From a virus, in IMG/VR virus record IMGVR_UViG_3300005618_000040, positions 1 to 34,790 of that record: DNA of 34,790 bases. One strand, 5' to 3'. The position numbers were made by a program, and so were the translations under genes. The notes under the pieces were generated by a model. It was not told where the DNA came from. It worked only from the letters and a program-made list of their open reading frames with translations, and made no database searches. Shown in pieces: positions 5,101 to 21,714 of the stretch; position 1 is the first letter of the stretch, and each line of letters opens with the position of its first letter.

Positions 5101-5398
5101 CGCATTTTGGGGCATTCAGGGCAACACCGGAACGGCCGTTGCTTCCCTGCAGGCGATCGAGCAGCATTCGTACACGGCGTCGGCGACGCTCGGCGATATG
5201 TTGACCGATATGCGCTCGGCGGGGCCGTCAACGGCGTCGTTCATGTCGCAGGTTACGCAACTACTCCATAGCATGGCCGGCAAGCTCGATATCATCGCCG
5301 CGGGCTCGCAGATGACGATGAACCTGTACGGGACGGACCCGTCGCTAGTCGCCGGCAAAATCGGAATGCAAATGCGGTTGCAGGGGGCGAGCTCTTGA
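2141..5398 (+). CDS. Tape measure protein
   Basis: This 1085-residue protein sets tail length and passes into the host envelope during DNA injection. Residues about 60-290 form the conserved tape-measure core (TIGR01760/PhageMin_Tail style): GITAPIVAIAG, FEQSMNKVVAVSGA, YSAKEAADGMGDLAAAGLTTGQ, then MSLEQTTTAIALLAGAGIKATEAGTGLRG. Residues about 395-468 are a long hydrophobic stretch with several possible membrane segments. A Lys/Ala-rich helical region follows (about 525-640). Residues about 880-925 are Gly/Ser/Pro-rich, followed by a hydrophobic helix. An AAGGGGC site precedes the ATG. It is the largest of the core tail genes and follows the chaperones as expected. Confidence 0.92.
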   Translation: MGGISGSGLSLGTLSITIQASVDQALAAFQKFGTDVGAVIDDQKAKWEGLKTAGESMSSIGQTLALGITAPIVAIAGASAAAAAGFEQSMNKVVAVSGATGVELEALKAQAMQLGADTKYSAKEAADGMGDLAAAGLTTGQVMAAMPGVLDLAAAGTLAVSRAAEVTTDTLGQFGLAASSAGHVADVFAVGAGAASMNAEQLAQSMKLVGPVANLAGMSLEQTTTAIALLAGAGIKATEAGTGLRGVLAALESPSKKAQTALDALGVSTKDVHGNLLPLDQIMLQMKESGASAADMFKIFGRESSAAAAGLMNTAGPAWAAMTAEINNSEGAAKKMAETLNTGMAGAFEQFKGSIETAGIALGTKLEPVIMSILEIGTKLVNDFLLPAIEWFGNLPAPVQAFIGVLIAAAAAIGPVLLVAGQLAVAIAAIGPALTALGVTLTVSVGALLGWAVAIAAGLAALVALGVWVNSNWYGIMGAIEAGVNSVVTKLMEFVGLMQKIVPASSAAGIALKDAAQGLSKYSDELKFGAQRHKMMQDESDATAAAHKKAAEEAKKAGTAHKELGAELVKVKTAHGKVGAAASDAADDHKKLKKAVTETEDKFKTYNTETELLNAKAAILSATHKKLITDLAAAQLAAETMGQKLESGLGPALDATKDSTSKLVAHFDTLGTNSLPTVLGKLGDLKMKIDPATGSIDAMNQGLKDLGITSAAKFTQIAADAQTAYDKVIAAPEATQWEKDSALLKLLEAQRQKMIANGQEIPALMDQQMTDLKGKIDGKAPEIKGAFDGMMSSVSTVITNFAQDISKSLWEGDTSWGEKGKKLLTSLGEAVTSSFIEPAAKAISAFIAKELADLLGAKGFGGLLDLVKDIGAKIAGIFTSAAPSVPSSVPGIPNVGLPGPSPPSGGSPSSSAGAALGAGLSGIVGMISGVVSAISGVISNFQFAAMNKSLDIIVKHTLQTANDLFNLRRDDWDRHAEYALWKDDYLSAFWGIQGNTGTAVASLQAIEQHSYTASATLGDMLTDMRSAGPSTASFMSQVTQLLHSMAGKLDIIAAGSQMTMNLYGTDPSLVAGKIGMQMRLQGASS

Positions 5399-8016
5399 GG
5401 CTTCGCGCGTCCGTCGAAGGCTTCGACCTTTCGGATGTGGCGCTCGTGGAAGGCGCCACCATCCAGCAGGATTCGACGCAAGGGATATCGACGGCCGAAA
5501 TCACGCTCTTTCAGCGGTACGGCGAAGCTCGGTACGATCACGCCGAGTACAATCACGCGGCGTTTATGTATGCGTGGGAGGTTACCGAGTGGCAGGAGCT
5601 CGAGCTTTGGGACGCCGACACCGGCGCGATCCAGTTCGCCGGGTTCATCCTCGCGATTGACCGCGAGCTTGACGGGCCGAACGTTCGCGTCACGCTGCAC
5701 GCGAGCGACTGGGGAATCCTGTTTGAGCGGACGTTGATTACGCAGAGTTGGCCGGATGGCACGCCGGATTCAACCGTGATCGCCGATTGCGTCGCGAAGG
5801 TGCCGGGGCTATCGCTCGGTACGGTCGTTACGCTCACGGCGAACCTTGGGCTAATCGAGGCGAAAGATCAACGAATCCGCGACGTGCTCGACAACGTTTG
5901 CCAGTTGATCGGCGCCGAGTGGAATGTCAGTTATGACGGCAAGGTGAACTATTACGAGTCGGGCTCGATCGTTGCGCCGTTCGCCTTGTCCGATCGGCCG
6001 AACCACACGACGACTCAACCGTATCAGCTCGACAACTACAGCCGGGATTTTTCGGACGCGGCAAACCGGGTGCTCGTGCTCGGGTCGGTGCTCGAATCGG
6101 GCGAAGTGCGCGCGACGGCCGACGACGCGGCGAGCCAGCAGCAGTACGGGGTGCTCTCGGTTACGTTGGTCGATCGCAATATCGGGGATGCGACGACGGC
6201 CGCGCTGTGGGCCGAAACCGAGGTTGCCGTACGATCGCAACCGAAATACACGATTGAGGCGTCGGTGTTTGTTCCGGGGCTCGCCCGCGGGATGACGGTA
6301 TCGGTCGAAGCCTGGAAATACGGCCTCGCCGCGTCGCTTATTCTGCGGTCGCTCTCGCTTGTGATCATGGCGCCCGATCGCGAGCGGGCGGGCGGCGCGG
6401 GGCACAAGCTCAAATACTCGGCGACGCTCGGAAGCCGGCCACCGGATTTGGTGTACACGTTGCGCCGGATGCAACGCCGGCCGGTGCAATCGACCGCGGC
6501 GCCGGCCGCGCCGATCGCGCCGGGTTCGATCGAGCCGGGGGACTTCGCCGCGGGAATCGAGCCGGTACACGTCGTCGATCACAAGCCGGCCGGCGCGGAA
6601 TGGGCGCTCTACTCGCCAACCGCCGTATTTTTGTACACGGTTGACCGGAAGCTCTACCGGCGAACGGGCGACGACTGGACGGCCGTGGTGCCTACCGCCG
6701 ATCTGGAAGGGCAACTGCAAACCCCTCAGTTCGCGCCTGGAAGCGTTACAAGCGTGGTACTCGGCGACGGGGCGGTAATCAGTGCCAAAATTCCAATGGG
6801 CGCGATCACGGCGCCTAAGATCGCGGTTGCGGCCGTCACGGTAAGCGCGATCGCCGACGGCGCCGTCACGACGGCGAAGATTCCGGACGGGGCGATACAG
6901 GCGCCGAAGCTCGCGGCGAGCTCGGTTACGGCAAATGCGATCGCGGCAAATGCGATCGCCGCGAGCAGCATTCAGGCGGGCGCCGTCACTGCAAACGCGC
7001 TCGCGGCGAATTCGGTCACGGCCGGCGCGATCGCGGCCGACGCAATCACGGCAAACGCGATCGCCGCGGGCGCGATCACGGCGAGCGAGCTCGCGGCCGG
7101 CGCGGTCACGGCGAACGCGATCGCGGCAAATGCGGTTACGGCATTGGCGATCGCCGCAAACAGCGTCACGGCGCAAGCACTCGCCGCGAATTCCGTCGTT
7201 GCCGGCAAGATTGCGGCTCTTGCAGTGACGGCCGGCAACCTCGCGGCCGATTCGGTCACGGCCGGCACGATCGCCGCGGGCGTCGTCGTCTCGGCGTCGA
7301 TCGCCGCGGGCGCGATCACGTCGGACAAGATACAGGCCGGCGCGATCACGGCCGACAAAATACAGGCCGGCTCGATCACGTCGGATAAAATCTCGGGCGT
7401 CGAATTCGCAGTAGGGTACGGCGCCAACAAGCCGGGGAGGGTCGGCGTCTACAACACGGCGAATCTGCTCGTTGCCTTGCTCGGCGATATGGGCGGCGCC
7501 GGGATGCCCGCGAATACCTATTTCGGGGTGTGGGCGAAGCTCGCCGCGTTTGGCGGGGCGGGCTACAACGATGCCGCGGTCTATACCGACACGGCCGGGA
7601 ATCTGTTTATCCGGCAAACGTCGTTCACGATCACCGGCGCCACCGGCTCGCCGGCCGCGGGGAGCTCGATTACTTCCAGTCCGACGACGTACGACGCCAC
7701 ATACGGGTCGATCGAGTGGCGGGTGAGCAAGCCGGCCGACTCTACGACGTCGCTTGTGAGCCGCGGTCTGGTGCTCCGCGGGTCAAGCGGCAACATTGCC
7801 GGCGCCTTCGTCCGATCGCCGACGACGGGGCACGAGAATGCTAGCGAGCTCGTGCTCAACAACAATTCGGGCGGGCTCACAATTTTTCTCGACGGGTTCG
7901 CCGGGCAAGTGCGCGCGGCGAGTTTCGCCGTCACCGGCAATACGAGTTTTACCGGATCGGTTCCGGCCGGCCGCGGCCTTACGGTCGTTAGCGGCCTGAT
8001 TACAGGTTACGTATAA
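5395..8016 (+). CDS. Tail-tip hub-like protein fused to a repeat-rich fibre
   Basis: This 873-residue protein starts with TTG at 5395, overlapping the tape measure stop (TTGA) behind a GGGGG ribosome site. Residues 1 to about 360 look like a baseplate-hub/tail-tip domain of the gp27/Tal type: a beta-rich start, then IRDVLDNVCQLIGAEWNVSYDGKV (about 160-185) and a VPGLARGMTVSVE segment. Residues about 385-440 resemble a short exposed module. Residues about 450-668 are roughly twenty decapeptide repeats, (A/S)(V/I)TAxxIAAx, likely a trimeric rod. The last 200 residues are a Gly/Ser/Thr-rich globular tip, probably for surface binding. The hub assignment is inference. The repeat rod is seen directly. 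Confidence 0.75.
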   Translation: MRLRASVEGFDLSDVALVEGATIQQDSTQGISTAEITLFQRYGEARYDHAEYNHAAFMYAWEVTEWQELELWDADTGAIQFAGFILAIDRELDGPNVRVTLHASDWGILFERTLITQSWPDGTPDSTVIADCVAKVPGLSLGTVVTLTANLGLIEAKDQRIRDVLDNVCQLIGAEWNVSYDGKVNYYESGSIVAPFALSDRPNHTTTQPYQLDNYSRDFSDAANRVLVLGSVLESGEVRATADDAASQQQYGVLSVTLVDRNIGDATTAALWAETEVAVRSQPKYTIEASVFVPGLARGMTVSVEAWKYGLAASLILRSLSLVIMAPDRERAGGAGHKLKYSATLGSRPPDLVYTLRRMQRRPVQSTAAPAAPIAPGSIEPGDFAAGIEPVHVVDHKPAGAEWALYSPTAVFLYTVDRKLYRRTGDDWTAVVPTADLEGQLQTPQFAPGSVTSVVLGDGAVISAKIPMGAITAPKIAVAAVTVSAIADGAVTTAKIPDGAIQAPKLAASSVTANAIAANAIAASSIQAGAVTANALAANSVTAGAIAADAITANAIAAGAITASELAAGAVTANAIAANAVTALAIAANSVTAQALAANSVVAGKIAALAVTAGNLAADSVTAGTIAAGVVVSASIAAGAITSDKIQAGAITADKIQAGSITSDKISGVEFAVGYGANKPGRVGVYNTANLLVALLGDMGGAGMPANTYFGVWAKLAAFGGAGYNDAAVYTDTAGNLFIRQTSFTITGATGSPAAGSSITSSPTTYDATYGSIEWRVSKPADSTTSLVSRGLVLRGSSGNIAGAFVRSPTTGHENASELVLNNNSGGLTIFLDGFAGQVRAASFAVTGNTSFTGSVPAGRGLTVVSGLITGYV
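6742..7398 (+). repeat. Decapeptide-coding tandem repeats (about 30 bp units)
   Basis: In-frame degenerate repeats encode units such as AITANAIAAG, AVTANAIAAN, SVTAGTIAAG and AITADKIQAG. The DNA units share GCGATC and CACGGC words about every 30 bases and differ mostly by substitutions, not length, so units have probably been gained and lost by recombination. The repeat belongs to the fibre rod of the gene at 5395-8016. Confidence 0.9.
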
Positions 8017-8367: not shown

Positions 8368-11300
8368 TACTCCGCGTCCACCGTTTCGGCTCCGCGACGC
8401 GCTCGCGGTGCCGGCCGGGTGGCCTCCGGACGTATTGCCGAATCAGATCATCACGGCCGCGCACATCAACGCGGTCAAGGCGAGCGTGTATGCATGGCCG
8501 GGTGATGTGGACGGCAAGAACCATACGCTATCGAACGTCAACCTCGTAAACGCCACCGGCGTGCTCGCCGATCCGACGACCGCGGCCGGCGATCTGATTG
8601 CGCGCGGTCCGGTGGCGCTCGGCGCGTTTGCGATCGGCGCGGCGGGGCAAGTGCTCACGGTCGATCTGGCGGCGCCGCAAAAGCTCAAATGGGCGACGCC
8701 GGCTCTGGCGCCGGTCCTGAGTTTTAATGCGCGCGTCGGCGCCGTGATGCCGGCCGCGGGCGACTACACGGCCGCAATGGTGACGGGCGCGCTCGCCGAT
8801 CCGACGACGACGAAGGGTGATTTGATCGTTCACGGCGCCGTCACCGGCCGAATGCCGGTAGGTACGGACGGTCAGGTGCTCCGCGCCGATAGCGCGGCGG
8901 CGCCGTTCGGCATCCGGTGGGGCGCCGAAAGCGTAGTAAGCGTGTTCGGCCGCGGCGGGCCGGTCACGGCGCAAGCCGGCGACTACACGGCCGCGCAAGT
9001 CACAAACGCCGTAAGCGTGCTCGGCTCTTATCCCGATCCGAGTTGGATTACATCGTTCGGGTGGTCGAAGCTAATCGGCGTGCCGGCGACGTTCGCGCCG
9101 GCGCCGCACACGCACGACGCGGGCGCGATCGTTTCGGGCGTGCTCGCGACGGCTCGGCTCGGTACGGGCGTCGCCGATGCCAGCGTGTATCTCCGCGGCG
9201 ACGGCACTTGGGCCGCGGCCGGGACGGGCGGCGGCGGGGGCGTGGTTAGCGTGTTCGGCCGAGCCGGTAACGTGATCGCGCAAGCGGGCGATTACACGGC
9301 CGCAATGGTCACAAACGCCGTGAGCGATCCGACGCAGAGTACCGGCGATTTGATCGTACGCAACAATCTCAACGCGCTTACGCGCTTGCCGATCGGCGCG
9401 AACGGTCAAGTGCTGCAGACCGATACAACCATGAGTGTCGGCATGAAGTGGACGACGATTACGGCCGCGGTTCAAACGCCTTGGGTAACGAACATCGACG
9501 CGGCGGGCTTCAATCTGGTCAACGTCGGGCGTATCGGCGTCGGCAAGTCTGTGCCGAATTATCCGATTGACGTTGTAGGCGATATCAACTACACCGGCGT
9601 GCTCCGCGTCAACGGCGTGCCGGTCACGTTCGGCGGCTCGCAAACTCCCTGGACAAGCAATATCGACGCATCGGGTTTCGCGCTCAATAACGTCGGTACG
9701 CTCGGGATCGGCACGGCCGCGCCGCAAGCGGCGCCGCTCGTGGTTTCGTCGGCGACACCGACCGCGGCCGGCTCGATCGCCGTGCAGGACAAGAGCGCAA
9801 CCGCGGCCGGCAATCCGGTGCTTGTGGTAAGCGGGATGAGCTCGGAGGGTTCGCGGTGTTGGGCGATCGGCAATCGCGGCGGCGCGACGTACGGACAGGA
9901 TTTTTACGCCTGGAACGATCGCGCATCGGCGATGATTTTCGGGACGAATTCGGCCGAGCGGATGCGGATTACGGCCGCGGGCCTGGTCGGAATCGGCGCG
10001 GCCGTGCCGGAAGCAAATCTTCACGTCACCGCGGCTACAGGCGATCCGACTATCTTGATCGACGTTACCACTCAGAGCACGCGCAGTCCGATATTGGCAT
10101 TCCGCGAGGCGGCTACCGCTGTTTGGAATATCGGCCTAGACGTGACCGATGGAACGAAGCTGAAAGTTGCGACGGGAGGGAGCTTTAACAATCTCCCGGG
10201 TGGCACTAAGATGACGATTACTGTGGCGGGCAACGTCGGCATTGGAACGACGGCGCCGGCTTACTTGCTTGACCTTGGAGGTAGTGACGTCCAACTCCGC
10301 ATCGCCACATGGGGCGGCATATCTGGAGATGGATCTGGCGGCTTCACTGCTGGCGAGAACATCTATCGGGATTCAACCGGGACATTCCGGGCGTTGAGTA
10401 CTCATGCCTCACTCGGCGGCGGCGGCATGTCTGTTGCGAGTGCCGATATCAGGTTTGTGAATTACACGGGCGCGGCTACCGCAGGCGCAACAGTTCCGGC
10501 AGTGGAGCGGATGCGGATCACGGCGGCGGGGCTGGTTGGCATCGGTACGACGGCGCCGATTGGCGCGCTCGACGTTCAAAACTTTGGATCATACGGTTAC
10601 TTTCGTGGCAATGCTAATGGTGCGTCTTATCCCGCGGCTTTCACTAATGGCGTAGCTCTGGGATGGAATCATAGCGGACTCTACGGCGAGGCGAACGTTA
10701 CATTTGCGGGGCCGCGTTTCGATCTGAGTTATTGGGATTCCGCGTCCGTCTACAGGGTTGCGCTAACGGTTCTGGCGGCGGGCACTGTCGGCATAGGTCT
10801 TGCGACCCCGCAATCACTGCTCGACGTGGCGGGAGATATCCGCGGTCGCAATGATCTGGTGTTCACCAAGGGTGCCACGCCGATGATTTACACGTCGGAC
10901 AATCAGGATTTGCGAATCGGAACTAACACTACAGAACACATACGGGTGGCAGCGGCGACGGGCCGTGTGGGTATCAATCAGGCCGTTCCCGTTGGAACCT
11001 TGCACAGCTATAGCGGTTCGTACGCTCCACAAAACGGGGTTGTCGCATCGGCACTTCTCGCGGACGGTCAATATGGTGGCGGCATATCTCTTATAACCAA
11101 CCCAATGGGTGCGGGCATGTGGCTCACGGCCTCTCCTGCTACGTTGCACATTGGAGTCGTTGAGAATAACGCTTCCTTTGGCGGTCCGACTGGATGCATG
11201 CTGATTGATTCCAACAATCGAGTTGGGATCTTGGTTGGACCGCTATACACCTTGGACGTTAACGGCGACATAAACTGCCGGGGCGTCTTCCGCGTCAACG

Positions 11301-12107: not shown

Positions 12108-12338
12108 ATGAAGCGGCTCACCGCTCGCGAGTGGACGTACGCGCGCCTAGTCGCCCGCGGGCTCAACTGCAAAGAGATTGCCGAGCATATGGGAATCTCG
12201 ACCGATGGCGCGCGTACACACGGCATCCGCATCTATAGCAAGCTCGGCTTGAGCTCGTGGGGCAATCCGCGGGTCCGGTTGGCGCTATGGGTGCGGGCGC
12301 GCGCCGGCGATCGCGTGGCGCCTTCGCCTATTCGGTAG
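12108..12338 (+). CDS. LuxR/GerE-type helix-turn-helix protein
   Basis: This 76-residue protein is almost only a GerE-type DNA-binding domain: LTAREWTYARLVARGLNCKEIAEHMGISTDGARTH...IYSKLGL, with the four-helix pattern and the KLGL signature ending the recognition region (about residues 3-48). No sensing domain is present, so it would act as a stand-alone DNA binder. Its 3' end overlaps the convergent gene 12328-12567 by 11 bases. No good ribosome site is visible; the ATG comes 13 bases after the previous stop. It may control late or early transcription, but its target is unknown. Confidence 0.8.
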   Translation: MKRLTAREWTYARLVARGLNCKEIAEHMGISTDGARTHGIRIYSKLGLSSWGNPRVRLALWVRARAGDRVAPSPIR

Positions 12339-12567
12339 CGGGCTTATCCTTCCAGCGTGCGGCCGCGGCCTTGCGCGCGATCGCCGCGCGTTTCGCCGGC
12401 GTGAGCGACGCGGCGCGGGCCGGTCCACCTTTTCTCCCTCCCTTACGGCCGATCGCCGAGAGCTCGCCCGCGGTTAACGCTTCCGCGCGAGCATTCCCAC
12501 CTTTCAATCCTCCGAGCCGGCCGAGCGCGACCGCGTGCGGGTTTTTCTTGATTCGTTCTTTCTTCAT
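12328..12567 (-). CDS. Small basic KGG-motif protein, divergent from the early region
   Basis: This 79-residue basic protein has repeated glycine-lysine motifs: LGRLGGLKGGNAR and IGRKGGRKGG, then AIARKAAAARW. This pattern is common in small uncharacterised bacterial proteins (KKNPHAVALGRLGG...), which I associate with Acidobacteria and related soil groups. It suggests nucleic-acid binding, but function is not established. It is transcribed away from the early cassettes from a reversed copy of their promoter. The TAAGCT box ends 6 bases before the ATG, so the message is probably leaderless although AGGAG lies just before the ATG. Its position opposite the first early promoter would suit a regulator. 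Confidence 0.75.
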   Translation of the reverse strand: MKKERIKKNPHAVALGRLGGLKGGNARAEALTAGELSAIGRKGGRKGGPARAASLTPAKRAAIARKAAAARWKDKPATE

Positions 12568-12573
12568 ACTCCT

Positions 12574-12603
12574 AGCTTAACTTGAGCGGTCGGTGCTTGT
12601 CAT
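12574..12603 (-). promoter_or_regulatory. Reversed copy of the early promoter
   Basis: On the reverse strand this reads ATGACA, an 18-base spacer and TAAGCT. The spacer shares GACAAGC...CTCAAG with the six forward early promoters. The start codon of the KGG gene follows after 6 bases, with no room for an untranslated leader. It lies about 50 bases from the first forward promoter, making a divergent control region. Confidence 0.5.
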
Positions 12604-12635
12604 TGTCCGCGGCGCCGGTTTCACCGTTCCGCCCG

Positions 12636-12732
12636 TTTCACCCCTTCGCGTTTGACTTGTGCGGTCAAGTCAAGCTAAGATTGGTTTGTAGACGACAGCC
12701 GACGGGCTTAAAGCGAAGGGAAAACAAACCAA
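12636..12732 (+). promoter_or_regulatory. Early promoter/leader cassette 1 with operator-like inverted repeat
   Basis: The -35 box is TTGACT (12652-12657) and the -10 box TAAGAT (12676-12681), with an 18-base spacer. TTGACTTG pairs with CAAGTCAA across 6 bases, a perfect inverted repeat over the -35 region that looks like an operator. Upstream CCCTTCGC is complementary to GCGAAGGG at the ribosome site. The leader contains GTAGACGAC and a small hairpin AGCC-GACG-GGCT. It drives the DUF932 gene. Confidence 0.75.
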
Positions 12733-13560
12733 ATGACGAACCGTTACCAGATGATCCGCACCGAACAGCCGATGACGAATGACCAACTCCGCGCCGCGGC
12801 GCCGAGCATTTTCGCGATGCAACCGTGGCACGCCATGAGCGATCGCTATACCTTTATCCCCACGTCGGCCGTGGTCGATCGGATGCGCGAGGAAGGCTTC
12901 CAGCCGGTCGCGGCGATGCAATCGCGTACGCGGATTGCCGGCAAGGGCGAATTTACGAAACACGTCGTACGCTTCCGCGATATGCGGGCGGGCTCGGCGC
13001 CGGCGACTCGCGCGCTCGGCGTGGTGTATCCGGAGCTCGTACTCACCAACTCTCACGACGGCGCGAGCGCGTACAAGCTCGACGCCGGCCTGTTCCGCCT
13101 GGTCTGCACCAACGGGATGGTTGTGAGTGACGGCGAATTCGCGCAAATCAACGTGCGGCATTCCGGATCGGCCGACGGCATCATTGAAGCGAGCTATCAG
13201 GTTGTCGAGCAGTTCCCGAAAGTGATCGACTCGGCCGCGCGCTTCCAGCAATTGCGGCTCACGGCGCCCGAACAGACGGCGTACGCGACGGCCGCGCTCG
13301 CTCTGCGGTACGACGAAGGCACGGCGCCGGTCGCGGCCGAGCAGTTGGTACGGGCTCGCCGGTCGGAGGATGCCGAGGGCACGCTCTGGAACAGCTTCAA
13401 CCGTGCGCAAGAGCATCTGGTAAACGGCGGGCTCCGCGGCCGTAACGCCGAGACTCGGCGCCGGGTGACGGTCCGGCCGGTTACGGGGATCAGCGAGAAT
13501 ACGCGGCTCAATAAGGCACTCTGGACGCTAACGCAGGAAATGGCGAAGCTGAAAGGCTAG
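12733..13560 (+). CDS. DUF932 family protein
   Basis: This 275-residue protein matches the DUF932 family often found in phages and plasmids. Recognisable parts are an N-terminal SIFAMQPWHAMSDRYTFIPT, a central DMRAGSAPATRALGVVYPELVLTNSHDGASAYKL (about 85-118), LVCTNGMVV (about 125-134), and a C-terminal WNSFNRAQEHLVNGG...ETRRRVTVRPVTGI. Function of the family is unproven. Members lie near replication and recombination genes and some are said to act against host restriction. It is the first gene of the early region, downstream of cassette 1, and is followed by a strong hairpin. Confidence 0.85.
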   Translation: MTNRYQMIRTEQPMTNDQLRAAAPSIFAMQPWHAMSDRYTFIPTSAVVDRMREEGFQPVAAMQSRTRIAGKGEFTKHVVRFRDMRAGSAPATRALGVVYPELVLTNSHDGASAYKLDAGLFRLVCTNGMVVSDGEFAQINVRHSGSADGIIEASYQVVEQFPKVIDSAARFQQLRLTAPEQTAYATAALALRYDEGTAPVAAEQLVRARRSEDAEGTLWNSFNRAQEHLVNGGLRGRNAETRRRVTVRPVTGISENTRLNKALWTLTQEMAKLKG

Positions 13561-13568
13561 CCGATCGG

Positions 13569-13592
13569 GGGCGCCGGTTGCGGCCGGCGCCC
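13569..13592 (+). terminator. GC-rich hairpin after the DUF932 gene
   Basis: GGGCGCCGG pairs with CCGGCGCCC around a 6-base loop, a perfect 9-bp stem, followed by ATCTTTCAAAA. The T run is short, so it may be a weak terminator or an mRNA stabiliser ahead of the zinc-finger gene. Confidence 0.5.
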
Positions 13593-13611
13593 ATCTTTCA
13601 AAAGGGGAACC

Positions 13612-13899
13612 ATGACACTCTTTAACGCAACAAACGCCGCGGGCACATGCTTGTGGTGCGGCGCGATACTTCGCCGGCAATCGACCGAAGCCGGACTGAA
13701 GCGCGATCTTGCGGCGATCGCGAAAGTGTACCTTGTGCCGGCGTCGCGCGATCGCGAGACGGTCGCGCGCCTGCAGCGGCATGATCGGGATTGCAACAAG
13801 CTCGGCAAGCATGACGGCTGTTTCTGCACCGATAGATGCGCGGTCAAATTTGGCGTCGCCGCGGCGCGCACCGGCTACCGTTTCGGGCCGCAATTGTAA
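13612..13899 (+). CDS. Small zinc-finger protein
   Basis: This 95-residue protein has a CLWC knuckle (residues 13-16) and a CFCTDRCAVKFG motif near residues 70-81, the pattern of a small treble-clef or zinc-ribbon fold with the two pairs far apart. An AAGGGG ribosome site lies before the ATG. It shares the FCTDRC wording with the protein at 32469-32780. The role is unknown; zinc proteins of this size in phages are usually regulators or host-protein binders. Confidence 0.7.
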   Translation: MTLFNATNAAGTCLWCGAILRRQSTEAGLKRDLAAIAKVYLVPASRDRETVARLQRHDRDCNKLGKHDGCFCTDRCAVKFGVAAARTGYRFGPQL

Positions 13900-13908
13900 A
13901 GCCCGTCA

Positions 13909-14003
13909 TTTCACCCCTTCGCGCTAGACAAGCGCGGTCAACTCAAGCATAATTAAAGAGTAGACGACAGCCGCGAGGCTTTAAAGCGCGAAGGGGAAAC
14001 ACC
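13909..14003 (+). promoter_or_regulatory. Early promoter/leader cassette 2
   Basis: TAGACA (13925-13930), a 17-base spacer and CATAAT (13948-13953) form the promoter. The leader has GTAGACGAC and the hairpin AGCC-GCGA-GGCT, whose loop is a GNRA tetraloop. The 11-base arm CCCCTTCGCGC upstream of the promoter is a perfect complement of GCGCGAAGGGG at the ribosome site. It drives the PP-loop gene at 14004. Confidence 0.8.
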
Positions 14004-15056
14004 ATGAGCAACGTAATCAGCAGTGAGAAAAAATCGCCGATCGTGGTTAGCTACGGCGCCGGCCGTGACAGTACAGCAATGCTGGTCGAAATGTGGAAGC
14101 GCAACATGCGGCCGGACGCGATCGTATTCGCGAACGTCGGAAGCGAAAAGCGCGAGACGTACGAGTATATCCGCCTGTTCGATGGTTGGCTCAAGCAACA
14201 CGATTTTCCGGGTATTACGGTTGTCCGTTACGAGCCGAAGCGGGCGCCCTACCGCTCGATCGAGGGCAACATGGTGCTCAACGCGACTCTGCCAGGTGCG
14301 GCCTTCAACATGCATTCGTGCGCGATGAAGTTCAAGATTGAGCCGCAAGTCAAATGGGCGAATCACTGGGCGCCGGCGCGCGAAGCATGGGCGCGCGGTC
14401 AAAAGGTCCGGAAGTTCATCGGGTTTGAAGCCGGCGAAACGCATCGCGTGAAGCGCGCCGACGCGCGGGCTCATTCCGGCAAGGCGAACAAGAACGAAGC
14501 GAAGCGGTACACGTACGAAATGCCGTTGATGGAATGGGGGCTCGATCTGGAAGCCTGCATTGCGAGCATCCGCGAAGTCGGCTTGCCGGTGCCGGCGAAG
14601 TCGTCCTGCTATTTCTGCCCGTTCCAAAAGACTGAGGAAGTCGATACGGCGACGCCGGAAGATCGCGCACGTACGATCCTGATTGAGCTCACGGCCGAGC
14701 CGTACAACACGGCCGTACAGGGCTTGTGGCGCCGGCCGCGGAAAGAAGACGGCCGGCCTGGTTCGATCACCGAGTACATCCTCGAAAAGAAACTGGACTT
14801 CGTACCGCTGCACGAGCTCGCCGATACGATCGTGCTGAATGACAAGTGCCAAAAGGCGCGCACCGGCGTTACGCTGCAGGCGCCGCACTTGCCGGTGAGC
14901 TTGCGCGATCGGCTCACGGCCGCGGGGCACGCCGTACCGCGCGTGGTGACGCCGGAAGCATGGGACGGCCGCGGCAAGGTGTACACCGAATCGCTCCGCG
15001 AAGTGCCGGCCGACGTTGAAGACGAAATGCACGCCGAGCTAATCGCCGCGGCGTAA
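14004..15056 (+). CDS. PP-loop ATPase, PAPS reductase-like (early copy)
   Basis: This 350-residue protein belongs to the adenine-nucleotide alpha-hydrolase/PAPS reductase superfamily. The ATP-binding PP-loop is SYGAGRDS (residues 16-23). Cys106 in HSCAMKFKI matches the position of the functional cysteine followed by lysines. FIGFEAGETHRVKR resembles the GISxDE motif, and CYFCPF (Cys202, Cys205) could bind zinc or an iron-sulfur cluster. Family members adenylate a substrate for sulfur or amine transfer, or reduce PAPS. In phages the substrate is usually unknown, and nucleic-acid modification is a reasonable guess. It is alone in its transcription unit. A second member lies at 29587-30366. Confidence 0.85.
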   Translation: MSNVISSEKKSPIVVSYGAGRDSTAMLVEMWKRNMRPDAIVFANVGSEKRETYEYIRLFDGWLKQHDFPGITVVRYEPKRAPYRSIEGNMVLNATLPGAAFNMHSCAMKFKIEPQVKWANHWAPAREAWARGQKVRKFIGFEAGETHRVKRADARAHSGKANKNEAKRYTYEMPLMEWGLDLEACIASIREVGLPVPAKSSCYFCPFQKTEEVDTATPEDRARTILIELTAEPYNTAVQGLWRRPRKEDGRPGSITEYILEKKLDFVPLHELADTIVLNDKCQKARTGVTLQAPHLPVSLRDRLTAAGHAVPRVVTPEAWDGRGKVYTESLREVPADVEDEMHAELIAAA

Positions 15057-15152
15057 TTTCACCCCTTCGCGCTAGACAAGCGCGGTCAACTCAAGCATAC
15101 TAGTGAATGTAGACGACAGCCGCGAGGCTTTAAAGCGCGAAGGAAAAACACC
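15057..15152 (+). promoter_or_regulatory. Early promoter/leader cassette 3
   Basis: TAGACA (15073-15078), 17 bases, CATACT (15096-15101). It has the same leader with GTAGACGAC and the AGCC-GCGA-GGCT hairpin. CCTTCGCGC upstream pairs with GCGCGAAGG at the ribosome site. The upstream arm directly follows the stop of the PP-loop gene. Confidence 0.8.
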
Positions 15153-15536
15153 ATGAAATTCTACGCTAACGAATCCGATTACGAAGACGCCTTGATCGAG
15201 GCGGCGCGCAACACTTGCGATAACTGCGGCGAGATTGTCTCCGATCTGTTCCGCGTACACGAGTCGGCGACGCCGTACATTGCGTGCTCGGAATGCTACG
15301 CGGAGGTTGACGCGATATTGGAGCGCGAAGCGGCCGGCGATATGCAACCGTCCGACGCGGGCGTACTCGCCGCGTTGCGTCGCAAGCCGGCCGGCCGCGA
15401 GCTCGAAAGCGAGCTTGAGCGGATCGACGCGAGCATGGTTAGCGCGTACGGCCGCGGCCTGGACGCGATCGAGCGCGAATTCATCCGCGCGAATATGGCC
15501 GGCGAGCTCGGGCCGAACGCCGCGGAGGTTGCATAA
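15153..15536 (+). CDS. Small protein with zinc-binding Cys pairs
   Basis: This 127-residue protein has two CxxC pairs, CDNC (residues 22-25) and CSEC (about 46-49), probably one zinc site, followed by an acidic helical region (LESELERIDASMVSAYGRGLDAIEREF). No family is recognised. Its stop overlaps the next start (TAATG), so the two are coupled. It is the first gene after cassette 3. Confidence 0.7.
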   Translation: MKFYANESDYEDALIEAARNTCDNCGEIVSDLFRVHESATPYIACSECYAEVDAILEREAAGDMQPSDAGVLAALRRKPAGRELESELERIDASMVSAYGRGLDAIEREFIRANMAGELGPNAAEVA

Positions 15537-15724
15537 TGCGCGGCGTCACTCTGCAGGAGCTCTACCGCCAGTACCGCGCGATGTATTGGCCGATTGAGGC
15601 GTACGTACACGCGCGGGCCGTCTGGACGCGCGGGCAGTTGATCGCCGGCAGTTGGAGTACGGGCGCCATGTGGCGCCTAATGGAGTCGGCCGCGGAGACG
15701 CGGCCTTTCACCCTTCCGCGCTAG
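15536..15724 (+). CDS. Tiny hypothetical protein ending inside cassette 4
   Basis: This 62-residue protein is rich in Trp, Tyr and Arg (VTLQELYRQYRAMYWPIEAYVHAR). No family is known to me. Translation is coupled to the previous gene. Its stop TAG at 15722-15724 lies within the -35 box of the next promoter, so gene and promoter share bases. Confidence 0.55.
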   Translation: MRGVTLQELYRQYRAMYWPIEAYVHARAVWTRGQLIAGSWSTGAMWRLMESAAETRPFTLPR

Positions 15725-15757
15725 ACAAGCGCGGTCAACTCAAGCATAATAATAAGT
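15706..15757 (+). promoter_or_regulatory. Early promoter cassette 4, without the leader
   Basis: TAGACA (15722-15727), 17 bases, CATAAT (15745-15750). It is identical to the other cassettes through the -10 box but the GTAGACGAC leader, hairpin and ribosome site are all missing. The ATG comes only 7 bases after the -10 box, so the transcript should begin at or within a base or two of the start codon (leaderless). Confidence 0.75.
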
Positions 15758-16075
15758 ATGAAGAACATGAAAAAAACGAAACAGACGCGGGGCTCGGTAG
15801 CGGTCAATCGGACGGGCGCCGTCATGCACGGCCTTGCACCGCTCACGGCCGAGCAGCTTCGCGAACAGGCCGCGATCACGGCCGCGCTCGGGTTGCCGAC
15901 GGTGACGGCCGAAACGCTTCGCCGCATGTCGGCCGAGTCGGAAGCGCGCTTTTACTCGGCGATCGGAGTACCGGCGCCGCGGCCGGCGACGCAGGTTGTC
16001 GAACGCTGGAACGGCGAGCGGTGGAGCGAGCATCGCCTGGTCTGGAACGGCACGCAGTACGCGGAGGTTGAATAA
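15758..16075 (+). CDS. Hypothetical protein, probably from a leaderless message
   Basis: This 105-residue protein starts MKNMKKTKQTRG, then has LAPLTAEQLREQAAITAALGLPTVTAETLRRM (helical) and a C-terminal VERWNGERWSEHRLVWNGTQYAEV, which looks like a small beta hairpin domain. No family is known to me. The start at 15758 was chosen because it lies 7 bases after the promoter box. The ATG at 15767 is an alternative, but neither has a ribosome site. It adjoins the next gene with the stop directly before its ATG. Confidence 0.65.
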   Translation: MKNMKKTKQTRGSVAVNRTGAVMHGLAPLTAEQLREQAAITAALGLPTVTAETLRRMSAESEARFYSAIGVPAPRPATQVVERWNGERWSEHRLVWNGTQYAEVE

Positions 16076-16297
16076 ATGCGGCCGGATTACATCGGGCACG
16101 GTAACACTTGCTGGAGTGGCGAGCTCCACCCTCAAGCGGAATGGGGTATGCGCGCGATCGACGGCCGGCACGATGACGTGGACGGCTACGAAAGTCGCGC
16201 CGCGGCCGAGCACGCGATTGCGCTTGCGCCGGCGTACAATTTGCCGCGTCAAGAGCTCGTGCGGCGCGTCAACGGCGTGTGGTGCAACGTCTGGTAA
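16076..16297 (+). CDS. Small hypothetical protein
   Basis: This 73-residue protein has the look of a compact domain: WGMRAIDGRHDDVDGYESRAAAEHAIAL, then VRRVNGVWCNVW at the end. No recognised family. It starts on the base after the previous stop, so it is coupled. Two Cys (residues 12 and 71) are the only possible metal ligands besides His. Confidence 0.6.
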   Translation: MRPDYIGHGNTCWSGELHPQAEWGMRAIDGRHDDVDGYESRAAAEHAIALAPAYNLPRQELVRRVNGVWCNVW

Positions 16298-16392
16298 TTT
16301 CACCCTTTCTCGCTAGACAAGCGCGGTCAATTCAAGCATACTAAAAGAGTAGACGACAGCCGCGAGGCTTAAAAGCGCGAAGGAAAAAAAAG
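16298..16392 (+). promoter_or_regulatory. Early promoter/leader cassette 5
   Basis: TAGACA (16314-16319), 17 bases, CATACT (16337-16342), followed by the GTAGACGAC leader with AGCC-GCGA-GGCT. The upstream arm CCCTTTCTCGC is a poorer complement to GCGCGAAGG than in cassettes 2 and 3. Confidence 0.8.
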
Positions 16393-16575
16393 ATGCAAAC
16401 CGTTAACTATATCTCTGATGTGCAACACACGGCCGGCACTATCGGCTTTTCGATGCTGTATAAGACTTGGGGCGGCGAGCCGCAAAAGCGCACGGTGCTT
16501 TATCTGCGGGACTTCGACGGGCTTACACAGAGCGTGATTGTGCTTCCGGCCGACGCCGTGCGGGGTGCATTCTAA
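16393..16575 (+). CDS. Tiny hypothetical protein
   Basis: This 60-residue protein is beta-rich by eye (TIGFSMLYKTWGGEPQKRTVLYLRDF, then QSVIVLPADAVRG). No family is known. An AAGGAAA ribosome site from the cassette leader precedes it. Its stop overlaps the next ATG (TAATG). Confidence 0.6.
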   Translation: MQTVNYISDVQHTAGTIGFSMLYKTWGGEPQKRTVLYLRDFDGLTQSVIVLPADAVRGAF

Positions 16576-17138
16576 TGGCACTCAAGTTTGAAACCAACGT
16601 TCAAAACGAGCTCAAAATGCGGTCGCTCACCGGCGAGCTCGTGGATTCCCAGTTCGGCGGGCAACAGTTCCGGTTCGTGACGGACGCCGGCGCCTTTTAC
16701 GTGAGCGAGCCGGTCGGCGCGATCCTGCAGGATCGGTTCGCCGCGCTCGGCGTGACGGCCGGCGAAACGGTCGGCATCTGCAAGCGCGAAGTAGTCCGCG
16801 GCGGGCGCAAGTCGATTCAGTGGGAAGTGGAGCGGATCGGCGACGCGCCGGCCGAAGAACCTTCGATGCTCGAACGGCAACTCGCCGCGTCGCTCGCCGA
16901 AGTCGCCGCGCGCAAGGCGCCCGTACGGGCCGCGGCGCCTGGTCCGGCGCCGGCCGCGTTGATCGGTTGGCAACAGACGTTGCTCAATCAGACGCAAGCA
17001 CTCACCGACGTATACGCCGCGGCTCTTGCGTACGCGAGCGAGCGGCACGGCAACGCGGTCAAGCCGGAAGATATCCGCAACATGATGACAACCGCGTTTA
17101 TCGGGCTGCAAAAGGGCGGCGGGCAACGTGCAGCGTAG
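16575..17138 (+). CDS. Possible single-strand-binding-like protein (long paralogue)
   Basis: This 187-residue protein has an N-terminal beta domain of about 95 residues (MRSLTGELVDSQFGGQQFRFVTDAGAFYVSEP, then GVTAGETVGICKREVVRG...IQWEVERI). An Ala/Pro-rich linker and a C-terminal helical domain follow (LLNQTQALTDVYAAALAYASERHG...VKPEDIRNMMTTAFIGLQ). The two-part layout is one I have seen in unannotated proteins of phages and soil bacteria. The beta domain is also found, alone, in the gene at 17855-18160, so the two are paralogues. A single-stranded DNA or RNA binding role is a guess from the compact beta fold and early position. Confidence 0.65.
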   Translation: MALKFETNVQNELKMRSLTGELVDSQFGGQQFRFVTDAGAFYVSEPVGAILQDRFAALGVTAGETVGICKREVVRGGRKSIQWEVERIGDAPAEEPSMLERQLAASLAEVAARKAPVRAAAPGPAPAALIGWQQTLLNQTQALTDVYAAALAYASERHGNAVKPEDIRNMMTTAFIGLQKGGGQRAA

Positions 17139-17388
17139 CGGGTTGGTTGTGATCGAGCGGGCGAGCGAGCGGGCGGGCGGGTCGCCCGCTCGCTTCCGCA
17201 ATGACGCGACGCTCGGGTTTCTGTTGCGCGAAGCGATCAAGCTCGCCCGCGGCCGGCGCGATCCGACGCTAGTTTGGTTGCTCCACAAATGCGTGGAACG
17301 GATGACGGCCGAATTTCACCCTCAGACGCTAGACAAATCCGGTCAAGTCAAGCATACTGAAAGAGTAGACGACAGCCGCGAGGCTTAA
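17128..17388 (+). CDS. Small hypothetical protein whose 3' end overlaps cassette 6
   Basis: This 86-residue frame starts with GTG at 17128, overlapping the previous gene by 11 bases. Residues 25-55 (ATLGFLLREAIKLARGRRDPTLVWLLHKCVERM) look like two helices. The last 25 residues are encoded by the promoter and leader of cassette 6, so the C-terminus is probably free to vary. Inside it, 17157-17196 is another GC-rich imperfect palindrome. No family is known. Confidence 0.5.
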   Translation: MQRSGLVVIERASERAGGSPARFRNDATLGFLLREAIKLARGRRDPTLVWLLHKCVERMTAEFHPQTLDKSGQVKHTERVDDSREA

Positions 17389-17409
17389 AAGCGCAAGGGA
17401 AAAAAGACA
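17314..17409 (+). promoter_or_regulatory. Early promoter/leader cassette 6
   Basis: TAGACA (17330-17335), 17 bases, CATACT (17353-17358). The spacer has GGTCAAGTCAAGC, closer to cassette 1 than to 2-5. The leader and AGCC-GCGA-GGCT hairpin are intact; the upstream arm has largely lost complementarity to the ribosome site. Confidence 0.78.
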
Positions 17410-17655
17410 ATGTACACCAAAAAAATCACCTACTGCAAAGAATTCTTGAGCGGCACGCTGCAAGGTTTGACGGTTCGCGAAAGCGTGCCGACTACCGATG
17501 ACGCCGTGACGATGCGGCTTGAGCGGTTGCAGCAATTGCAGCGCGATTACGTGTTGCATGGAATGAAGGCGAAAGACGTTTCCGGCAACTGGTATCGCGT
17601 TTACAACATCGGGTGCGAGGATATCGCACCGGCGCCGGCCGCGGAGGTTGCATAA
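17410..17655 (+). CDS. Small hypothetical protein
   Basis: This 81-residue protein has YTKKITYCKEFLSGTLQGLTVRE and AVTMRLERLQQLQRDYVLHGMKAKDVSGNWYRVYNI. The first part reads like a beta hairpin and the middle like a helix. No family is known. AAGGGAAA precedes the ATG, and the stop overlaps the next start (TAATG). Confidence 0.65.
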   Translation: MYTKKITYCKEFLSGTLQGLTVRESVPTTDDAVTMRLERLQQLQRDYVLHGMKAKDVSGNWYRVYNIGCEDIAPAPAAEVA

Positions 17656-17855
17656 TGCGTCGCCAGTACGAGCCGTTGACGCCGGAAGAATTGCAGGCGA
17701 TTCGATCGTTTGCCGATTACGCCGGCCGGACGTGGAAGGCGGATTTGCTGCACGCATGGGAACGGGCGAGTATGCCGGGTTTGCTTCACAAGCTCCGTAA
17801 TTCGCATGGGCCGACGTGGTTGGTTAACTTCCGGTTGCCGCGGGCGGGGGAGTAA
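17655..17855 (+). CDS. Tiny hypothetical protein
   Basis: This 66-residue protein is helical and basic (LTPEELQAIRSFADYAGRTWKADLLHAWERASMPGLLHKLRN), ending in TWLVNFRLPRAGE. No family is known. It is coupled on both sides by TAATG overlaps. Confidence 0.6.
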   Translation: MRRQYEPLTPEELQAIRSFADYAGRTWKADLLHAWERASMPGLLHKLRNSHGPTWLVNFRLPRAGE

Positions 17856-18160
17856 TGAACAAAATCACTTTCAAGCTCGACGCGCCGCTAGTGGTTCACA
17901 TGATGGACTTGAACGGCCGCGAATTCGATTCGGACTTCCCGCCGTTTGATAGCTACTGGGTCTTTGAAGCGGAGGAGGGCCGGTTCTATCTCTCGGACAC
18001 GCAAGGCGCGCTCTTTCGCGCCAGGTTGAAGGCGCGCGGCATCGCGGCCGGCGAGCCGGTGACGATCGTCAAAACGAAAGTGCCGAACGCGAACAGCGGC
18101 CGGCCGATCATCGAGTACTTGCCGTACGCATGGGCGCCGCTCGAACGCGGCGCCGCTTAG
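17855..18160 (+). CDS. Possible single-strand-binding-like protein (short paralogue)
   Basis: This 101-residue protein aligns by eye with the first 95 residues of the protein at 16575-17138: hydrophobic start, MMDLNGREFDSDF (against LTGELVDSQF), GRFYLSDTQGALFRARLKARGIAAGEPVTIVKTKV (against GAFYVSEPVGAILQDRFAALGVTAGETVGICKREV). It lacks the C-terminal helical domain. A nucleic-acid-binding role is inferred only. It is the last gene of the cassette 6 unit and is followed by a hairpin. Confidence 0.65.
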   Translation: MNKITFKLDAPLVVHMMDLNGREFDSDFPPFDSYWVFEAEEGRFYLSDTQGALFRARLKARGIAAGEPVTIVKTKVPNANSGRPIIEYLPYAWAPLERGAA

Positions 18161-19536: not shown

Positions 19537-20010
19537 ATGTCCAAAAAGCTGGAATTGCTCACGAAGCATATCGCTGCCGACCGGCTTAAGTTGAGTGTCC
19601 GACGTCTAACCGAGCTCGCGGCCGAAGGCAAATTTACACGGCATCGCGCGTTCGATCCGGAGACGCGGCGCGATGCACTGATGTTTGATGCCGCGGAGAT
19701 TGAAGCCTATCAGGGCCGGCGAGAATACGACTCGGCGCCCGCGGGCACGACGGCCGCGCTCGTGACGACGGCGCCGCGGCGGTTGCCGCTCGACGAGTAC
19801 GATATCGACGAACCGGCCGCGGCCGTCACGTTGCGGCCGTGGCTCACGATCGCCGAATCCGCGGAGTACTCGGGCTTGCCGGCGTCGCACTTGCTCGGCA
19901 TGATCGAAGCCGGCGAGCTCGCCGCTCGCGACGTCGGCATCCGGCCGGGTGGACACTGGCGGGTGCGGCGTCTCGATCTGGACGCGATCGAAGGCGAGCG
20001 CGTCAAATAG
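19537..20010 (+). CDS. Regulator with two excisionase/MerR-like helix-turn-helix units
   Basis: This 157-residue protein seems to hold two winged helix-turn-helix units of the excisionase type. The first is ADRLKLSVRRLTELAAEGKFTRHRAFDPETRR (about residues 12-46). The second is WLTIAESAEYSGLPASHLLGMIEAGELAARDVGIRPGGHWRVRRLDLDAIE (about 102-153), a classic HTH_17-like layout with a conserved GGHWRV end. An Ala/Thr/Pro linker joins them. It may regulate early genes or replication; no integrase is present to suggest a true excisionase. The leaderless arrangement upstream is described separately. Confidence 0.8.
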   Translation: MSKKLELLTKHIAADRLKLSVRRLTELAAEGKFTRHRAFDPETRRDALMFDAAEIEAYQGRREYDSAPAGTTAALVTTAPRRLPLDEYDIDEPAAAVTLRPWLTIAESAEYSGLPASHLLGMIEAGELAARDVGIRPGGHWRVRRLDLDAIEGERVK

Positions 20011-20368
20011 CTGCACATGTCCGCTTACACGTCTACTATCTTTCGATAGTGATTCGGCGTACGGCCGTTGCCGGCCGAGCTATTGGCTTTTTGCGGGCGC
20101 CGGGTATATCGTCATTGCCTAGCAAGGCATTGTAACCGGCAGAGCGGTTTTCGCATCGGCGCGGCCGGCCGTAACAGGTCCTTTGACTCCCAGCTTGCGC
20201 GGGTTGTTTATAGCGCGAGCGAAAGGGGTCAACGTGTCTCTACGGCCGGCGCCAATTTTCACACGCGATCGCACGCAAAAGCGTTGCGTGTGTGTCACGG
20301 CTCCAAAACATTTCACTAGCGTGCTGTTTGCGCGGTGTGATACGGTTGTCAGTGAAATTTACGGGCCG
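20011..20368. other. Non-coding stretch before the replication gene
   Basis: No convincing gene. It holds small hairpins, CTATC-TTTC-GATAG (20036-20049) and TGCCT-AGCA-AGGCA (near 20116), and an imperfect larger one around 20262-20293 built from ACACGC and GCGTGT arms with an inner ACGC-AAAA-GCGT. A promoter is listed separately at 20183. Confidence 0.6.
20183..20212 (+). promoter_or_regulatory. Probable promoter for the replication gene
   Basis: TTGACT (20183-20188), an 18-base spacer and TTTATA (20207-20212). It would give a leader of about 340 bases that contains the hairpin cluster at 20369-20471. Confidence 0.5.
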
Positions 20369-20499
20369 ATTCGCCCTAAAAAGCGAATGGCCCCACGATG
20401 CTGGAAACATCGTGGGGCTGGATGTATTCCGGCCAGATCGGAAACAACAGGTTCAATGTTGAAATCCAGCCGGGACGCTAACGAGCGTACCACAAAATC
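20369..20499 (+). ncRNA. Cluster of conserved-looking hairpins upstream of the replication gene
   Basis: Consecutive perfect stems: ATTCGC/GCGAAT (20369-20388), an 11-bp GCCCCACGATG/CATCGTGGGGC (20390-20418, 7-base loop), and a three-way junction closed by GGCTGGAT (20416-20423) with ATCCAGCC (20464-20471). The junction encloses TTCCG/CGGAA (20427-20443) and CAACA/TGTTG (20445-20461), both with 7-base loops. ACGCT-AACG-AGCGT follows. The 11-bp stem and the closing stem share three bases and cannot both form fully, so the RNA could switch. A control RNA, leader or part of the origin are all possible. Confidence 0.55.
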
Positions 20500-20556
20500 C
20501 CGCGAAATCGCTCGATCTTTCGTTCACTGTTTCCCCTACAGCGAGGAGCTCGCCTT

Positions 20557-21714
20557 ATGAGTGTTGAAACCGCACATATGCCGGAATCGCCGGCGATGCA
20601 TGTCGATCGCAAACCGCAACAATCGGAACGGTCGCGCGATCGCGCCGGGTTCGTCAAACTTCGCCGCGGCCGGCTCGAAAAGGGCGCCGCGGAGGGCACA
20701 CTGTCATGGAACTACGAAACCGTGATTCGCGCGTTCGGGCCGATCGGCGCGTGGGCCTTCGTCTACGTGCTCGACCGGACGACGGAAGCATATCCGCCGC
20801 GCGATTACGTCAAGCTCGATCTAGACGATTTGGGCGCGGCCTTGAACGTCGGCGAGCGGCAAGCGCGCAACGTAATCGACACGTTGATCGAAAAGGGCGG
20901 CATTGCCCGCGATCCGGACGACGCCGGCCGCGTGCGCGTATGCCTGGACGCGATCGAGCGGGCGCCGGCGCGGACGCGGACGTACGAGCGGAAGGCCGAG
21001 GCGGAAGTCCGCGGCGCTCAAATGGGGTTGCCGCTCGTGAAAATATTTTCACCGGAGCCGGCCGCGCCGGTGATCGAGGATCGGGCGCCCGAAAGTGAAA
21101 ATATTTTCCCGATCCTGCAGGCGCCGACTGCAAATATTTTCACTGAGCCGGAAGGAAATTGCCGGAAGCCGGAAAGTTATTGCCCGTGGAATTGGAGTTG
21201 TCCACATCTTTCGAGCGGGTTAGCGACACTGCAGACCTATGCAGAAGTGAAATCCTCAGAGTCGTCGTCGTCGGTAGACGTGGACGACGCCGACGCGAAA
21301 AGCGTATTTAGCACAAATTCCTTCCACGCCGAGCTTGCTCGCGCGTTCGCCGGCGCCGGAAAATCCGTGCCGACGGAGCGACAGTCCGCGGCCGTCTACG
21401 ACGCGATCGACGGCGCGGCGTTTCTCGCGTGGCTCACGCCGGCGAAGCTCCTGAAGGCGAACGGGCCGGGTATTCTACCCAGTTGGATTGAGGAATTCCG
21501 TACGTTCACGGCCGCGGCGCAATCGCTAGCGGGCGATCGGGCGGCGGCGCGGTTGCGCGAGCGCGAAGAATTGCACGCACTCGCGGAGCGGGCGCGGCTC
21601 GACGACGAACGGGCGAAGGCGCGGGCGGCGAACTGTGACAAGTGCCACGGTGCCGGCGTCATCAAAACGGCCGGCCGGCCGTCTAAACGCTGCATTTGCC
21701 AGGACGCGCGGTAA
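20557..21714 (+). CDS. Replication-initiator-like protein
   Basis: This 385-residue protein has an N-terminal winged helix domain (about residues 45-135: LSWNYETVIRAFGPIGAWAFVYVLDRTTE, LDDLGAALNVGERQARNVIDTLIEKGGIARDPD) like the helix-turn-helix domain of phage replisome organisers (lambda O/DnaD-type start). A disordered Pro/Glu/Ser-rich middle follows (about 160-260), then a helical part and a C-terminal zinc motif CDKCHGAGVI...KRCIC. Palindromic AT-rich repeats lie inside the coding sequence, as origin repeats do in lambda O. A GAGGAG site precedes the ATG. I infer origin binding and recruitment of host replication proteins, since no polymerase or helicase is encoded. Confidence 0.65.
   Translation: MSVETAHMPESPAMHVDRKPQQSERSRDRAGFVKLRRGRLEKGAAEGTLSWNYETVIRAFGPIGAWAFVYVLDRTTEAYPPRDYVKLDLDDLGAALNVGERQARNVIDTLIEKGGIARDPDDAGRVRVCLDAIERAPARTRTYERKAEAEVRGAQMGLPLVKIFSPEPAAPVIEDRAPESENIFPILQAPTANIFTEPEGNCRKPESYCPWNWSCPHLSSGLATLQTYAEVKSSESSSSVDVDDADAKSVFSTNSFHAELARAFAGAGKSVPTERQSAAVYDAIDGAAFLAWLTPAKLLKANGPGILPSWIEEFRTFTAAAQSLAGDRAAARLREREELHALAERARLDDERAKARAANCDKCHGAGVIKTAGRPSKRCICQDAR
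21037..21206. repeat. Candidate replication origin: AT-rich palindromic repeats and a DnaA-box-like site
   Basis: Three related 16-base sites: a perfect palindrome GTGAAAATATTTTCAC (21037-21052), GTGAAAATATTTTCCC (21095-21110) and CTGCAAATATTTTCAC (21128-21143). They sit in the replication gene, and the first is in a different codon register from the other two, so the DNA itself seems conserved. TTGTCCACA (21198-21206) differs by one base from the E. coli DnaA box and equals the form known in high-GC bacteria. Confidence 0.6.

Follow-up and report, generated by a model that had tools for sequence, protein, structure and literature searches.

Why would a small virus carry the same block of about 95 bases in front of one group of small genes after another? 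The question is raised by the virus record IMGVR_UViG_3300005618_000040, analyzed over its whole length of 34,790 bases (hereafter the window), which represents a small, uncultured siphovirus of bacteria. The two ends of the record hold head, neck, tail, and terminase genes, and the block, called here the cassette, occurs in a small-gene region at 12.3-18.6 kb that is flanked by tail-fibre genes and by an excisionase-like/terminase block. The explanation that we find probable is that the cassettes are dispersed early promoters for the host polymerase, with one shared operator and one leader, and that together they constitute a growing regulon.

The six cassettes and their promoters

An earlier note, made from the letters of this DNA, had described near-identical promoter/leader blocks, each before a small transcription unit, and all copies were confirmed where it had placed them (Table 1). 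BLAST analysis of copy 2 against the whole record reports exactly six places (E-values 7e-50 to 4e-14, 77-100% identity). The core CGGTCAANTCAAGCATA is found six times with at most two mismatches versus 0.18 expected, a count reached in none of 100 shuffles, and the leader motif GTAGACGACAGCCG matches the record exactly at five places, all remaining matches carrying three mismatches. Copies 2, 3, 5, and the short copy 4 are indeed near-identical, but copies 1 and 6 share 75% identity with copy 2 in the 48-nucleotide (nt) promoter part. A promoter is present in all six copies and a leader in five, copy 4 being devoid of it. The cassettes precede 2, 1, 2, 2, 3, and 3 genes, respectively; these are not demonstrated to be separate transcription units, because no terminator is predicted on the + strand between the units of the window, and nested transcripts with internal promoters may be produced.

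All six cassettes pass a test for sigma70-type promoters (-35 and -10 hexamers 16-18 nt apart), matching 9-10 of 12 positions. The -35 hexamer is TTGACT in copy 1 and TAGACA in copies 2-6, the spacing is 17-18 nt, and the -10 hexamer is TAAGAT, CATAAT, or CATACT. Since such elements are known from sigma70 promoters to be read by the host polymerase, the cassettes would be read by the RNA polymerase of the host carrying its main sigma factor.

The earlier note had proposed aligning the copies and searching related phages. In IMG/VR, the leader motif is found in four other contigs only, with 3-4 copies each. These close relatives (G1-G4, G1 being contig L017) are syntenic with the window, roughly 67-81% identical to it in aligned DNA, and carry near-consensus promoters (TTGACA-17/18-TATGAT, TAGAAT, or TATAGT; 10-11 of 12 positions); G3 and G4 each have one strong predicted terminator ahead of a cassette. 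Protein-profile searches identified more distant relatives (other L-numbers) with the same layout: L034 has two cassette copies, about 92% alike over 91 nt, five related promoters are present in L042, and L031, L032, L037, L041, and L043 have one clear promoter each. An 11-mer seeded search reported no cassette-like direct repeat pair in L029, L040, and L044-L051, and L051 shows the promoter of L041. Upstream of the promoter, TTTCACCC is common to all six window copies and missing from the close relatives; at the corresponding position, L042, a distant contig, bears TTTCACCCCCTCGCG. A long stem joining upstream TTTCACCCCTTCGCG to leader GCGCGAAGGGG was ruled out: the two parts vary independently in copies 5 and 6, and the close relatives are devoid of the upstream part, though L042 shares it.

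Table 1. Cassettes, associated genes, reversed element, and inserted units in the window
Feature	Position	Strand	Details
Cassette 1	12636-12732	+	TTGACT-18-TAAGAT; spacer palindrome TTGACTTG-TGCGGT-CAAGTCAA at 12652-12673; leader from 12688, hairpin AGCC-GACG-GGCT
Genes after cassette 1	12733-13560; 13612-13899	+	DUF932 gene; 95-residue gene
Cassette 2	13909-14003	+	TAGACA-17-CATAAT; leader from 13960, hairpin AGCC-GCGA-GGCT
Gene after cassette 2	14004-15056	+	PAPS-reductase-like
Cassette 3	15057-15152	+	TAGACA-17-CATACT; leader from 15109
Genes after cassette 3	15153-15536; 15536-15724	+	first gene 127 residues
Cassette 4 (short)	15706-15757	+	TAGACA-17-CATAAT; no leader; predicted leaderless start at ATG 15758
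Genes after cassette 4	15758-16075; 16076-16297	+	
Cassette 5	16298-16392	+	TAGACA-17-CATACT; leader from 16349
Genes after cassette 5	16393-16575; 16575-17138; 17128-17388	+	
Cassette 6	17314-17409	+	TAGACA-17-CATACT; leader from 17365; within 3' end of open reading frame 17128-17388
Genes after cassette 6	17410-17655; next gene ending 17855; 17855-18160	+	first gene 81 residues
Reversed element	12574-12603	-	weak divergent promoter, predicted: -35-like ATGACA 12603-12598, 18 nt, -10-like TAAGCT 12579-12574
Operator half-site CGCTCAAGTTAAGC in reversed element	12588-12575	-	
P0001	12328-12567	-	79-residue basic, KGG-rich small protein; divergent from cassette 1
Unit: PAPS-reductase-like gene + cassette 3	14004-15152	+	missing from all four close relatives
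Unit: cassette 6 + 81-residue gene	17306-17663	+	inserted in operon continuous in relatives

A predicted operator in the promoter spacer

Cassette 1 carries a palindrome in its promoter spacer, and the more distant relatives have other, lineage-specific palindromes there, namely TGACAAGATCGCTCTTGTCA in L031, ATGCTTAGCGCGTTAAGCAT in L032, CTAACGTACGCAAGTTAG in L034, and TTGACTTGCTATGGCAAGACAA in L043, as expected for operators of a phage regulator. Spacer symmetry, compared with spacer shuffles, gives p=0.0002 for L032, p=0.004 for window cassette 1, and p=0.03 for L034, none of which had been selected for symmetry, and all 20 cassettes of the window and G1-G4 share one best dyad-axis point. 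The promoter and upstream parts are more alike within genomes than between them (the observed difference was reached in 1 of 2000 label shuffles), whereas the leaders are equally alike within and between genomes (93% between genomes), which argues that the leader is under a common constraint and that the operator drifts in concert.

The element reported earlier as a reversed copy is not a whole cassette. It has the half-site CGCTCAAGTTAAGC in common with the cassettes, together with hexamers arranged as ATGACA-18-TAAGCT, but is devoid of a leader. The predicted +1 of this reversed promoter coincides with the ATG at 12567, and a leaderless mRNA is thus predicted for the divergent gene. The same reversed half-site is present in each close relative, the layout being kept in G1, G2, and G3 and also in G4, there with a different first gene. 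As read from the sequences, the distance between the first base of the -35-like hexamer and that of the half-site is 15 nt in the reversed element versus 10 nt in the forward cassettes, so that promoter geometry does not explain the conservation of the half-site. Ranked by match to the operator half-site, the reversed site of the window, G1, G3, and G4 stands with the cassettes, and the rest of each record scores lower.

A regulator-binding site within the promoter spacer is likely, since this site is conserved beyond the needs of sigma70, recurs at the divergent gene, and differs between lineages in a concerted manner; to this extent, the proposal that a factor recognizes the block stands. 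A phage-encoded DNA-binding regulator would recognize this site, which overlaps the -35 and the spacer, with one more site at the divergent gene 12328-12567, and would most likely act on all units at once, repressing or down-shifting them. Repression would be the simplest effect of a protein bound over the -35 and spacer, and this position favours it over the activation that the earlier note had considered probable.

Regarding the regulator, P0001, the product of the divergent gene, is a candidate by position only. Its family is kept beside cassette 1 in the window, G1-G3, L031, L034, and L043, and in L031 two palindrome sites lie between the cassette and the divergent P0001 homologue. The protein returns no Pfam or NCBIfam match, and its AlphaFold model is all-helical (pLDDT 67). 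The second candidate is an excisionase-family helix-turn-helix (HTH) protein (19537-20010), which is conserved in relatives, the record having no recognized integrase. The LuxR/GerE-type small HTH gene at 12108-12338, beside the divergent gene, was rejected, as the early regions of the four close relatives contain no homologue of it. Behind the homologue of the 79-residue protein in G1 (~9300-9430, minus strand), a frame beginning MRFEWDEAKAASNERKHGVSFEVAA resembles, by eye, a BrnT-type toxin.

Several results weigh against the favoured explanation. Copies 2-6 of the window keep only half of the palindrome, with 7-8 of 13 pairs matching at the shared axis, and the spacer symmetry of copy 2 alone and of G1 copy 2 is not above shuffles. 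The palindromes of L031, L037, L041, L042, and L043, several of the distant set, were first picked by a palindrome filter, and their p-values are biased for this reason. The P0001 model matches no fold in the PDB and shows no recognized DNA-binding fold. Profiles for an HTH_3 repressor or an integrase (PF00589, PF00239, PF01381) find nothing in the five contigs, two of them shorter than the others, and we accordingly make no claim of lysogeny; the repressor search covered the HTH_3 type (PF01381), and other repressor types are possible. Lastly, the folding energy of the leader hairpin is not above shuffles, L037 excepted. Of the alternatives, the one that best survives, though we regard it as unlikely, is that of plain constitutive early promoters that the host RNA polymerase reads without any phage regulator, and with spacers that are alike through recent duplication and recombinational homogenization. 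It agrees with the near-consensus promoters of the relatives, the within-genome homogenization of promoter parts, the absence of a recognized repressor, and a copy 2 that is not palindromic beyond chance. However, it does not account for the half-site that each close relative also has at the divergent gene, reversed and in another register to the -35/-10, nor for three lineages, found independently of symmetry, whose spacer palindromes differ in sequence.

The leader and the gain of genes

The leader, of about 45 nt, starts in five of the six window cassettes with GTAGACGACAGCC at the predicted +1 or one base later. Among the 21 cassettes bearing GTAGAC (5 in the window, 14 in G1-G4, and 2 in L034), this motif lies at the predicted +1 in 18 and one base later in 3, and the leaders of L041 (GTAGAC) and L031 (GTACTC) likewise begin at one of these two positions; in L032 and L037 the 5' ends have diverged and the hairpin is still alignable. 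Because the conserved motif aligns with the predicted +1 across relatives, the conserved downstream half of the block is, judging from these alignments, the 5' untranslated leader itself. The ATG follows, after an AAGG-type ribosome site, at +42 to +47 both in the window and in G1-G4. The 4-bp hairpin, AGCC-GCGA-GGCT with the loop GACG in copy 1, becomes AGAC-NNNN-GTCT in L034 and L037, a compensatory change from C-G to A-U at one of the four pairs, with 100% of cells paired. Transcripts would start at GUAGAC and have a short hairpin near the 5' end as well as a strong ribosome-binding site, and since these are shared, the leader-bearing units would be translated alike. In cassette 4 the -10 ends 7 nt before the ATG, and a leaderless mRNA is predicted for this reason; L042 and L043 have leaderless-type starts of the same kind. 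Rfam reports no match to the leader, and five exact matches of its motif in bacterial genomes were set aside as chance, the promoter being absent there.

That the leader RNA, and not the promoter, is the functional core, as a 5' tag read by a phage or host factor (put/nut-kind antitermination, mRNA protection, or selective translation), is slightly less probable than constitutive promoters. The leader is indeed the best conserved part (93% between genomes), begins at +1, contains a tetraloop hairpin in which a compensatory change has occurred, and is retained where the operators of relatives are quite different, but copies without it exist (window copy 4 and the L042 and L043 starts), no terminators on which an antiterminator could act are predicted between the window units, and the stem, without an Rfam match, has 4 bp only. 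Equally doubtful is a combined form in which a phage factor would read the leader as a shared 5' mRNA badge, GUAGACGACAGCC-hairpin-UUAAAAGCGCGAAGGA, to stabilize, antiterminate, or selectively translate all early mRNAs, the badge being copied with the promoter to each new gene; if true, such reading would make a two-layer portable regulon, with a DNA operator and an RNA badge.

Under the explanation favoured here, of host-polymerase promoters with a shared operator, new genes would be gained as gene-plus-cassette modules, probably via homologous recombination between cassettes, and would join the regulon on arrival because the cassette comes with the gene. Comparison with the relatives reveals such insertions, in line with the earlier suggestion that the cassettes let genes be added to one regulon. 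For the PAPS-reductase-like gene and cassette 3, window positions 12352-14007 align unbroken with G1 9456-11132, as far as the start codon that follows the cassette. Cassette 3 has this same G1 cassette (11042-11133) as its aligned counterpart, the only one that G1 has at the insertion point; the gene has no homologue in the other four contigs. For the unit of cassette 6 and the 81-residue gene, an orphan with no homologue in these four contigs, window positions 17305 and 17664 correspond to G4 20390 and 20412. The open reading frame 17128-17388 runs through cassette 6, which is consistent with the loss of its old stop upon insertion of this unit. Cassette 4 falls between genes 15153 and 15758, whose homologues adjoin in G4. 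Homology blocks begin and end at cassettes; this, together with the two insertions in the window and the same pattern in the Cluster O mycobacteriophage repeats (PMC4351075), might suggest that the repeats are mainly recombination hotspots with an incidental promoter function, a view that we consider very improbable since recombination needs neither strict promoter geometry, nor +1-to-leader alignment, nor a constant place directly before the start codon.

Elsewhere in the record, a second PAPS-reductase-like gene (29587-30366), 29% identical to that at 14004, stands among the head genes, and the genes flanking it stand side by side in G1. The stretch 20010-20557 (~550 bases) contains no clear gene and has a 13-bp hairpin at 20390-20418; it is possibly an origin or an RNA. 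INPHARED phages return no DNA match to the record and no protein match to the tail protein encoded at 5395-8016. At the end of the viral contig L050 (21371-21761), six repeats of 36-37 nt, GCTTCAATGGGGCCGCGATCATGTGATCGCGGAAAT, spaced by ~72 bases, form a CRISPR-like array.

Comparison with known systems

Morons are autonomous promoter-gene-terminator insertions, the classical ones carrying their own unrelated promoters. The inserted genes of the window likewise arrive with a promoter but, unlike morons, share that of the resident phage and would thereby join one regulon.

Among described arrangements, the closest precedent is that of the Cluster K mycobacteriophages, in which the ESAS, a SigA-like promoter with an inverted repeat (seven intergenic copies in Adephagia), is accompanied by the 13-bp start-associated sequence (SAS) (Pope 2011, PMC3203893; PMC11373665). 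In both systems the non-structural region contains several copies between genes, with SigA-like -35/-10 hexamers 17-18 bp apart, an imperfect inverted repeat (clear here in copy 1 and the distant relatives, degenerate in copies 2-6), and a separate conserved element at the translation start. The inverted-repeat sequence is subcluster-specific in Cluster K, where three genomes have one copy on the opposite strand, comparable to the reversed half-site. They differ in that no shared sequence is seen, that promoter and leader form here one block of ~95 bp with a hairpin-bearing leader from +1, that the host is not known to be a mycobacterium, and that no repressor or integrase is recognized. The 13-bp SAS at the start codon, GGGATAGGAGCCC, is not found in the window leaders, which end in a GCGCGAAGGAAAAA-type sequence before the ATG.

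In SPbeta, the SPBRE, a short element repeated in many phage promoters, is bound by a single regulator, MrpR (PMC10516654), and thus repeated promoter elements can be the operators of one master regulator. In contrast with the block described here, the SPBRE has 15 bp and no copied leader, and MrpR has a tyrosine-recombinase fold, for which PF00589 finds no match here. The 17-bp dyad repeats of Cluster O mycobacteriophages are numerous, and genes are gained or lost between two copies (PMC4351075), but these repeats are not tied to promoters or start codons, as the cassettes are. The stoperators of Cluster A are many dispersed sites for one regulator that also stop elongation across the genome (PMC9283540, PMC6550527); the sites here are also dispersed, and window copies 2-6 may be read as asymmetric half-sites, but every clear site lies within a promoter.

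The near empty-site comparisons illustrate how a phage could add accessory genes that are correctly controlled from the start, the unit of acquisition including the resident promoter, operator, and leader. Operator variants with constant leaders further provide a natural data set with which the regulator could be sought and the joint change in specificity of a regulator and its many sites tested. The present case joins features of the Cluster K, SPbeta, and Cluster O systems in one block with a +1-anchored leader.

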